Origin: Arabidopsis thaliana
Taxonomy: Eukaryota; Streptophyta; Magnoliopsida; Brassicales; Brassicaceae
Direction of reading: 5' to 3'
DNA length: 64,000 nucleotides
Assembly: GCF_000001735.4 (NCBI RefSeq)
Contig: NC_003075.7
Coordinates: 10,293,001-10,357,000, forward strand
The position numbers were made by a program, and so were the translations under genes. Below are positions 52,561 through 56,051 of the stretch, one piece after another. The notes beneath the pieces were generated by a model that saw nothing but the letters and a program-made list of their open reading frames with translations, made no database searches and was not told the origin of the DNA. Positions within the stretch are counted from its first letter, which is position 1; each line of letters opens with the position of its first letter.

Positions 52561-53159
52561 TTTCTTCAACGTAACGGAGAAATGTTAGACATATTGTTTG
52601 GGAAACCACACCAATTTTCTCTTTTTGGGCTTTGGACATTCTATATATCTTAGAGTCTTTTGGGTCTTTAATTGTTGGGATCCATCTTTATGCATTAAAA
52701 TCATTTTTCTAAATTTAGGAAAGTAAAGTGTTAGATTACGATAATAAAATTTTGCAGATTTTATTTTTAAAATTTAGATCTATAACTTGTAATAAATTTG
52801 TTAAACTAATATTTGTTATATGTAGTGAATTAGTATTAGATTGTTTACCAAAAGATGTATTTATTTTTCTGTAAAAAAAACTCTTATCAAAATTTTAATA
52901 TTTCTTGAAAATATCCAATTATATTAAATTATAATTTAGTATTTCTTTGATAATTAATTTCTATGATATATAAGATACAATGTTGTGGACTTTTATAGAA
53001 GAAAATATGCTTATTTGAGTAACATATTTAACTTTTGGACCTATTTTACTTCTAGATATTTATGAATTGTGAGTATATATAAAGACATGGAACTTCACAA
53101 GAGTTGCAATACTGTATATATGAGAAAAAAAACAAGTTAAAGAGTGCTTTTGATCCAAA
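52561..53159. other. AT-rich spacer and promoter of the double-HSF gene
   Basis: No coding sense. A TATA-like TATATATAAA at 53074-53083 lies 77 bp before the ATG at 53160. Confidence 0.55.
53074..53083 (+). promoter_or_regulatory. TATA-like element before the double-HSF gene
   Basis: TATATATAAA, 77 bp upstream of the first ATG, suggesting that the locus still has a core promoter. Confidence 0.45.
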
Positions 53160-54227
53160 ATGTTAAACATGAGCAAAAATGAAGGTTCATTAACCTCAGT
53201 ATCATATTTCATCACCACAACGTATGATATGGTCGATGATCTTTCATTAGATTCAATAATTTCTTGGAGCCAGAGCGGCAAGAGTTTCATCATTTGGAAT
53301 CCAGAAGAATTTTACAACAATCTTCTTCAAAGATTCTGCTTCCAACGCATAAATACCTTTTTCTCTTTCCTTTTTTCACATGTAAGTTACTTATATATGA
53401 TTACTTTAGTAAGATGTCATCATAGATAGTTTTGTATTCTCTCAACTTTGAATCTTCCTTTTCGTTAGGGTTTCAGAAAAATCGACTCTGGAAAATGGGA
53501 ATTCGCGAATGATAATTTTGTGCGAGGTCAACGTCACCTCATAAATAACATTATAAGTGATGTAATAGAGCAGGAGGTTCAATATGATCAAGGAATGGAA
53601 TTGTTTAAAGCAGAAAAATTATTTGCACGACTAGTGAAAAAAGTACAGGATCAATTGCCACCTCATAACAGTTATCCAACCTCAAAACTTCCTTTCCCCA
53701 CCAAAATCTATGAGATGGTGGACGATCCTTCATCGGATGCTATTATCTCATGGAGCCAAAGTGGCAAGAGTTTCATCATTTGGAATCCACAAGAATTTTG
53801 CAAAGATCATCTTCGTAGACTCTTCAATACCCTCCATATACATTTTTTCTTCTATAAACTTAAAATATTTGTAAGTTTCTTATATGTTAGTTTTGTAAGA
53901 TGTAATCATATTCTTTTAGCTAGTTTTTGTTTTGCTTATTAACTTTGAATCTTCTTTTTTCTATAGGGTTTCAAAAAAATTAATCCAAAGAAATGGGAAT
54001 TTGCAAATGATAATTTTGTCCGGGGTCAACGTCACCTTGTGGAAATCATTATAAGCAATGATAAAAAGAAGAATGATCAACTACGTAAACAGGATGCCAG
54101 AGAGAAAAAAATGGCGGAGGCAGGAGAATTGTTTAAGTTGCAAATTGAGGAAATGTCGGATATGAGAAAGAAAATGAAGAAGGCCAAGGAAGTAAAGGAA
54201 CAAGAGGTTCGACTCTGCAAATTATGA
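53160..54227 (+). CDS. Protein with two degenerate HSF DNA-binding domains (At4g18870)
   Basis: Three exons: 53160-53381, 53469-53870 and 53967-54227, giving 294 residues (291 from the second Met). Domain 1 spans about 15-100: [29 protein letters not shown], then after the intron [20 protein letters not shown]. Domain 2 repeats the pattern from about 158: [20 protein letters not shown], then [20 protein letters not shown]. Both introns fall exactly where the HSF intron falls. In both domains the recognition helix and preceding turn, which read [14 protein letters not shown] in HSFA4A, are replaced by unrelated Phe-rich sequence ([23 protein letters not shown]). The C-terminus is a Lys/Glu coiled helix. 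It probably cannot bind heat-shock elements. It might be a pseudogene or a non-binding relic; the frame and splice sites are intact. Confidence 0.8.
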
Positions 54228-54279: not shown

Positions 54280-54545
54280 CTTGTCATTACCATTAAAGTT
54301 TGTATTTATTAGTTTTCTTTGAGATTATGTTTAATGTTTTTGTTTGTGCAACAGTTGCTTCTTTGGCTTTCTGCTTTCTGTAAAATCCCTTAAAAAGGAT
54401 GTAATAATTATTCTTTGATTTGGCATAGTACTCGTTATAAGTCTCTTGTAACTTTTCTTTTTTTTTCTTTGTTTGTTTCCGACGTGTTCTTCATAAATTA
54501 TTGAATGGTATACTGATAAAAGTCTACAACATCATATAGGACTTT

Positions 54546-54605
54546 GGAAATTATGATTTTGTTGAAGGTCAATCTCATTTTATGAATACTATCCATAAGC
54601 TCTAG
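54546..54605 (+). pseudogene. HSF half-domain scrap 2
   Basis: Reads GNYDFVEGQSHFMNTIHKL then stop, again matching the HSF block before the oligomerisation region. It and scrap 1, with flanks, form a direct repeat of about 85 bp. Confidence 0.7.
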
Positions 54606-54768
54606 CTTATCATTACCATTGAAGTCTGCTACAATGAACTGTGAAAGATCATACAAGTGATAAATAAACAGCTGAACCATACCTAAGTACTGTAATCGAA
54701 AACAATAAAACTGAGAAACCCTATTTTACAAGTAACTAAAACAGACTAGAAATTTAATCTTTGACATA

Positions 54769-56051
54769 TCAACTTCTCTCTGAAGAAGTCAGATGTCCAA
54801 GCTGTTCTGTAATTGCATTAACATTTCTCGAATTCCACCAACATTTCTCAGTACGTACTCCGGCTTTATCTTTATCGTCTTTCCTCTCTAATTGAACTTC
54901 CCGTTGCTCGGTTGAGCCAGGATTCTCTGAGAAAAACTGCTGCCAGAAGCCATCATTCGCTCCTGCTACTGGAGGAGGAGGAGGAGCAGCAACAGTGTTC
55001 TGTTCTTTCGAACCATCGGGCTCACAGTTCATATCGATGATCCTTGGAGAAGGAGGAGATTTGAGACGTGAATCGACACTTAACTGTATGCAAGAAAGAG
55101 GAGGGCTCTCTGGAAAAGTAGATGATTCATCCACATCAAGTGTCATCATACTTCTTGATTGTAACATACTCTCACAAGAATCCGATACAAGATTCTCCCA
55201 AATCGCTATCGATGACTCTAACTGTTCCACTTGATGCTCTCTTGTGTGTGAAGAAGGGCTTGTAGAACCTTCCTCTCTCACAACAACACAAGTTTTGTTC
55301 TCTTCCAACATCGGTTCATCGGGAAAGAACTCGATCCTAGGGAACCTTCTTTTCCTCTCGTTTGTTTCGGGAACACACGGCGATAGGTTCAAAGCAAGCC
55401 CTGGCTTTTCCAATACTTGAGAAACAAACGAAACCATTGTTTTCTGACGCTTCTCCATGTGTTGTAATCGTTCTTTAAGTTCTTTCACTTGCATCTCAAA
55501 CACTTCTCGTTCCTCGTCTTGTTTATGTAACTCTTCAAGCAATCCTTCTTTCTCTTTTGTCAATCTCTCAATCTGATTATTCATTCTCACTCGTTCTGAA
55601 TCCGTCAACGGGTTTAACTGAGCTTGAAGATTCGGTAAAGAGTGGCTATGAACTGGTTTGCGTCTATGAATGTTCTTCATAAGATGAGGTTGACCTCTCA
55701 CAAAATCATCATTCGCAAATTCCCATTGCTCAGGATCAGCTTTTCTAAAACCCTACACACAAAAACAAATTCCACTAAGAAGATGATTGATTTAGTCAAT
55801 ACTTTTAAACAAAGCATGAAAACACTTACATATGTGTTAAGCTGGCGGATAAAGCTAGAGAAGTTATTGTGCTTGAAGAATCTCGGAAGAAGATCTCTAG
55901 AAAACTCCGGCGGATTCCAAACGATGAAACTCTTATTGCTCTGACTCCAAGAGACGATAGAATCGGATGAAGAATCATCAACCATCTCATATGTTTTGGT
56001 GAGGAAAGGTGGAAGTGAGCTTGATGAAACTCCATGATTATTCTCATCCAT
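54769..56051 (-). CDS. HSFA4A: HSFA4A, class A heat-shock transcription factor (At4g18880)
   Basis: Two minus-strand exons, 56051-55830 and 55752-54769, give 401 residues. The DNA-binding domain (about 13-107) starts [20 protein letters not shown], has recognition helix [14 protein letters not shown], then the intron, and [20 protein letters not shown]. The HR-A/B oligomerisation coiled coil follows (about 125-190; [36 protein letters not shown]). A basic NLS (ERKRRFP) lies after it. Near the C-terminus is an aromatic-acidic AHA activator motif ([13 protein letters not shown]). HSFA4A is a known positive regulator of responses to heat, salt and oxidative stress. It lies tail to tail with the degenerate double-HSF gene. 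Confidence 0.97.

Follow-up and report, generated by a model that had tools for sequence, protein, structure and literature searches.

Selection on the scaffold and wings, and not detectably on the reading helices, of a two-domain HSF-type gene beside HSFA4A in Arabidopsis thaliana

The window analyzed here is a stretch of 64,000 nucleotides of the Arabidopsis thaliana genome (NC_003075.7, positions 10,293,001 to 10,357,000), in which a spliced gene with two HSF-type domains lies tail to tail with an ordinary HSF. From its position beside HSFA4A we take the first gene to be AT4G18870 (the name follows TAIR order), and the second is presumably HSFA4A, AT4G18880. The features of the locus, numbered along the window, are the following:

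53074..53083, forward strand: TATA-like element TATATATAAA, identified by sequence likeness, 86 nt 5' of the ATG
53160..54227, forward strand: AT4G18870, spliced gene with exons 53160-53381, 53469-53870 and 53967-54227 and an open frame of 294 codons
53160..53381, forward strand: exon 1, with the start codon and the first half of HSF domain 1, including its rewritten helix
53382..53468, forward strand: intron 1, 87 nt, GT..AG, at the canonical HSF position and homologous to intron 2
53469..53870, forward strand: exon 2, with the wing half of domain 1, the linker, and the first half of HSF domain 2 with its rewritten helix
53871..53966, forward strand: intron 2, 96 nt, GT..AG, at the canonical HSF position
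53967..54227, forward strand: exon 3, with the wing half of domain 2, a charged tail of weak similarity to part of the HSFA4A tail, and the stop codon
54211..54302, forward strand: third HSF wing remnant, ending in a stop and overlapping the last codons of AT4G18870 in another frame
54540..54628, forward strand: fourth HSF wing remnant, reading GNYDFVEGQSHFMNTIHKL and then a stop
54769..56051, reverse strand: HSFA4A, an ordinary HSF, tail to tail with AT4G18870

The first-pass annotation had described a single spliced frame carrying two HSF domains, with a TATA-like element, and this architecture was recovered in full. The 294 codons hold neither a stop nor a frameshift, both introns are bounded by GT and AG, the TATA-like element is present, and the Pfam profile HSF_DNA-bind matched the protein twice (126 bits over both stretches against a cut-off of 22; whole-protein E 9.2e-37). 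Another in-frame ATG lies three codons downstream of the first, and a start there gives a protein of 291 amino acids. The idea of a misplaced donor, under which the helix would belong to an intron, was rejected on a scan of the sequence, since positions 53310-53381 contain no GT and positions 53796-53870 contain a single one (GTAGAC, at 53815). AT4G18870 and AT4G18880/HSFA4A are paired in a GWAS table, as candidates for leaf serration (PMC11397509).

A six-frame Pfam search of the 119.66-Mb genome for HSF_DNA-bind returned 26 matches, among them both AT4G18870 domains (50.5 and 61.3 bits, cut-off 22). In both, an intron between helix 3 and the wing falls just before the GF dipeptide, the position that it occupies in all 21 ordinary HSF domains of the genome (18 extracted by pattern and 3 by hand), so the canonical intron placement claimed earlier holds, and the wing sequences quoted with it proved exact. 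Functional HSF transcription factors have one DNA-binding domain; AT4G18870 has two HSF_DNA-bind stretches. The best solved relatives of domain 2 were chains of human HSF1 (E 2.7e-12), in which the stretch NNMASFVRQLNMYGF aligned opposite the helix region of domain 2; the Arg of this stretch is the base-contacting residue. AlphaFold models of the exon-1 halves, built from three rows each, were poor (domain 2 reached a pLDDT of 61, the HSFA4A control one of 53).

The reading helix sets these domains apart from ordinary HSFs. All 21 ordinary HSFs of the genome carry the motif NFSSF[VI]RQLN, which is absent from four others, namely the two domains of AT4G18870, REN1 (At1g77570, RESTRICTED TO NUCLEOLUS 1) and At4g19630; the invariant SF[VI]RQLN portion of the motif is likewise found in neither AT4G18870 domain. 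It had been proposed that the helix was replaced outright by Phe-rich sequence. In the register of the 25-row alignment the position still aligns and the F and L of SF.RQL are retained, so that part of the claim falls, and the S, S, R, Q and N are altered in both domains, so that the change itself stands. Domain 2 aligns with HSFA4A through the helix free of gaps. The register of domain 1, which takes a one-residue gap against HSFA4A in the 25-row alignment, is less sure than that of domain 2 and depends on the alignment, because MAFFT on three rows placed the gaps elsewhere. A compensated frameshift as the source of the Phe-rich helix was rejected, domain 2 being gap-free and domain 1 having a 3-nt gap at the DNA level (the other frames of domain 1 were inspected by eye).

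When nine rows, the relics among them positioned by eye, were set side by side, F was constant at position 4 and L at position 8 of the 11-residue helix stretch. The Arg was retained in HSFA4A and in a half-domain near 9.8 Mb of chromosome 4; its place was taken by Ser in domain 1, REN1, At4g19630 and the chromosome 5 relic, by Thr in the chromosome 1 relic, by Pro in a tandem relic of At4g19630, and by Tyr in domain 2. The helix stretch of domain 1 contains no Lys or Arg and is mostly hydrophobic. Loss of RQ.N is thus common to REN1, At4g19630 and both domains of AT4G18870, and the earlier view that it was special to this gene does not hold. Among the nine free positions of the helix, domain 1 and REN1 have four residues in common (reached by 1.5% of shuffles), REN1 and At4g19630 three (2.5%), and domains 1 and 2 two (39%, the level of chance). 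Because ten pairs were tested, the residues shared among domain 1, REN1 and At4g19630 are suggestive only. Since the invariant RQLN is lost, AT4G18870 may fairly be read as unable to bind DNA.

The phylogenetic placement of these domains was analyzed with a tree of 25 domains taken from the 26 Pfam matches; neither the relics nor the half-domain at C4:9804999 entered it. Domains 1 and 2, REN1 and At4g19630 formed one branch beside HSFA4A and HSFA4C (support 92/92), in which long branches meet. Exclusion of the helix columns lowered support for this four-domain branch to 64/71. With At4g19630 excluded as well, domains 1 and 2 and REN1 grouped together at 96/97; with REN1 excluded instead, At4g19630 moved to HSFA4 (88/71); and with both excluded, the two AT4G18870 domains paired at 99/96 beside HSFA4. 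A single clade of domain 1, domain 2 and HSFA4A was not rejected (AU p 0.28). These topologies indicate that AT4G18870 likely originated from HSFA4. A common origin of its two domains with REN1 and At4g19630 is plausible but unproven, because the clade rests on long branches.

Comparison with the three closest genes places AT4G18870 more precisely. HSFA4A, the nearest ordinary HSF on the tree, adjoins it, has the same intron position and is 75-80% identical in DNA over the kept stretches; it differs in having an intact reading helix, one domain and a second exon of 327 residues. REN1 shares the HSF winged-helix scaffold near HSFA4/A5, the loss of RQ.N, a Lys/Arg-rich tail and, with domain 1, the helix pattern FFS.L.SH. 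Unlike AT4G18870, it has one domain, no intron and a tail ending in LQHLQI, and it is described in a review as an early male gametophytic gene. At4g19630 also combines a divergent HSF domain that has lost RQ.N with the canonical intron and adjoining degraded tandem copies, but it has one domain, and its attachment to the group is affected by long branches.

Selection was assessed within the Arabidopsis genome, among domain 1, domain 2 and their paralogues, from dN/dS (omega) in nine domain pairs, several of which had saturated dS. Between domains 1 and 2 (93 codons, dS 0.83) omega was 0.32 overall (0.16-0.60), and it fell to 0.21 when the helix was removed (bootstrap 0.08-0.44; Fisher p 1.1e-5). 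In the core (31 codons) omega was 0.08; in the wing (19 codons) pN was 0.11 against a pS of 0.76, so that dS was saturated and omega is undefined but low. In the helix (20 codons) omega was 0.95, with a wide bootstrap range of 0.00-3.63. Against HSFA4A the helix of domain 1 gave 1.87 (0.63-7.31), which is not significantly above 1, and that of domain 2 gave 0.48 (0.00-1.73), from which neutrality is not shown; beside these stands the value of 0.02 for HSFA4A against HSFA4C. The stretch after the wing showed no constraint (omega 0.84 for domain 1 and 1.09 for domain 2 against HSFA4A, and 0.67 over 15 codons between the two domains). With rounded counts, the helix differed from core and wing together in all three comparisons (p 0.007 for domain 1 against domain 2, 0.003 for domain 1 against HSFA4A, 0.04 for domain 2 against HSFA4A); set against all remaining sequence together, it did not differ significantly (p 0.08). 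Selection has therefore held the scaffold and the wing, and not detectably the reading helix. Gene conversion was rejected as the cause of the likeness of the wings, since their synonymous sites are near saturation.

Taken as a whole, the gene has changed quickly. Introns of the two repeat units are 76% identical (64/84) and exons 69% (236/340; p 0.23); because introns are no more diverged than exons, the coding sequence overall evolves about as fast as the introns, and the protein is fast-changing. Insertions and deletions follow another pattern: the exons of the two units differ by gaps of 3 nt (in the helix) and 12 nt (in the linker), and the introns by gaps of 3, 11 and 1 nt in only 84 columns. 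Had the exons gained indels at the rate of the introns, 12 would be expected, and the probability of two or fewer is 0.0005. This count omits an 8-nt gap between the start of exon 1 and the linker and everything after position 54110 of unit 2; with the 8-nt gap included, the probability of three or fewer is 0.002. In neutral simulations of the whole frame, 0.6% of 2000 runs were still without a stop at a branch length of 0.1 and none were at 0.2 or 0.4; restricted to the first 456 nt, the simulations gave 7.5%, 0.7% and 0.05%, respectively.

A late-stage pseudogene, one of the readings offered in the first-pass annotation, would be expected to carry disabling lesions or an omega near 1. No lesion was found in the 294 codons and omega between the domains is 0.32; the value of 0.21 outside the helix, the frame-keeping exon indels and the rare survival of neutral frames leave that reading with little support. 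The low omega outside the helix speaks in particular against a long-standing pseudogene. Note however that omega averages over the whole time since the duplication, and the constraint that it records could be older than a recent loss. The companion reading, a tandem-duplicated HSF with a rewritten reading helix, agrees with the local HSF repeats, the alignment and the dN/dS of the domain pairs.

The neighborhood records further duplication. The third and fourth wing remnants, which the first-pass annotation had missed, are identical at 54 of 60 nt, and the 32 nt that follow are also common to both; each matches HSFA4A at 45 of 60 nt, as compared with 36-37 of 60 for domain 1 or 2. Because the stop codon and last codons of AT4G18870 lie inside the third remnant, in another frame, its present C-terminus may be truncated, the product of a deletion. 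Similar debris occurs elsewhere in the genome. The At4g19630 locus (C4:10683800-10688500) contains a degraded tandem copy with both domain halves, an altered helix, a TGA and frame breaks, and a second degraded copy of which the wing half alone was found. Degraded HSF-like fragments lie at C5:18490007 (about 52 kb from HSFA4C), C1:29805181 and C5:13243349, two of them with an altered helix (TRFNSRL, LEFMTEL). At C4:9804999 there is an intronless half HSF domain in which the Arg is retained (NFSLFTRLLDRYGFRK); no matching first half was seen upstream of it. The group to which AT4G18870 belongs tends to duplicate in tandem and then decay.

AT4G18870 itself is already known and listed among the Arabidopsis HSFs; it is one of those named in a survey that counts 24 (PMC9123238). 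That survey gives zero downstream genes for AT4G18870, At1g77570 and At4g19630, which fits a role other than that of an HSF but may only reflect missing data. It also reports that most Brassica rapa accessions preserve AT4G18870, in three copies, and have lost AT4G18880 (HSFA4A), a pattern in which the two genes may have been swapped in the synteny assignment. Other papers describe AT4G18870 as the one seed-specific HSF among genes altered in eno2 plants (PMC7479207, with reference to Le et al. 2010), list it for cold response in ecotype Kyo-2 (PMC3829657) and report no counterpart of it in walnut (PMC7350716); passages of PMC5594490 and PMC4310194 yielded nothing on it. REN1 is presented as a homologue of HSFA5 that resides in the nucleolus and is required for male gametophyte development and the heat response (PMC5767325, PMC5811523, PMC9292940).

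Taken together, we lean towards the view that AT4G18870 is a real, expressed, fast-evolving and HSFA4-derived gene of REN1-like character, whose double winged-helix scaffold does not read heat-shock elements. A copy of HSFA4 would have given rise to a group with REN1 and probably At4g19630, in which the winged-helix scaffold persisted and the residues for reading heat-shock elements were lost. The AT4G18870 protein would enter the nucleus, possibly the nucleolus, would not read nGAAn, and may act in seed development through protein contacts or unspecific nucleic-acid contacts, with the kept wing and the charged tail as the putative contact surfaces. Its role is probably not that of an ordinary heat-shock switch. 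A broader and more tentative proposal is that a copy of HSFA4 founded a separate reproductive-tissue class (REN1 in pollen, AT4G18870 in seeds, and At4g19630), in which selection keeps the winged helix as a module for protein binding or for the nucleolus and no longer constrains its DNA-reading face, AT4G18870 being the tandem two-module version.

Three other accounts compete with this view. The gene may be recently dead or dying, functional for most of the time since the duplication and now drifting like the remnants and relic relatives. The two wing remnants directly downstream, the degraded relatives on chromosomes 1 and 5 and beside At4g19630, the equal divergence of introns and exons and the stop codon within a remnant all accord with such a fate, which we nevertheless regard as unlikely, given 294 codons without stop or frameshift, neutral frames that seldom stay open, and a gene listed as seed-specific and differentially expressed. 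We think it quite improbable that AT4G18870 acts as a dominant-negative partner, using its tail to join HSFA4 or further class A factors in trimers unable to hold a heat-shock element. HSFA4A is its neighbor and likely parent, and the domain 2 tail shows some likeness to part of the tail of HSFA4A (a score reached by 1 of 300 shuffles, in one of 28 tail pairs), yet this similarity, which bears on the HR-A/B oligomerization region of functional HSFs, is weak and the tails of domain 1, REN1 and At4g19630 show no match to HSFA4A (79, 299 and 270 of 300 shuffles reach the score). Most doubtful of all is a DNA-binding protein with a new target, in which a re-tooled helix face and tandem domains would read a composite site. 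The aligned helix position with its kept F and L, the purifying selection on wing and core, and the omega of 1.87 for the helix of domain 1 against HSFA4A would suit it, but that omega is not significantly above 1, the helix of domain 1 lacks Lys and Arg, and the two helices share residues only at chance level.

If the favored view of a reader-less, REN1-like gene is true, AT4G18870 would clearly exemplify a transcription-factor fold under selection after the loss of its DNA-reading residues, and the intact parent beside it, together with the related genes, makes comparison possible. In the open-licence literature we found no discussion of two-domain or reader-less HSFs or of selection on their scaffold. 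Lists that place AT4G18870, At1g77570 and At4g19630 in the HSF family contain genes whose action is probably not that of an HSF.
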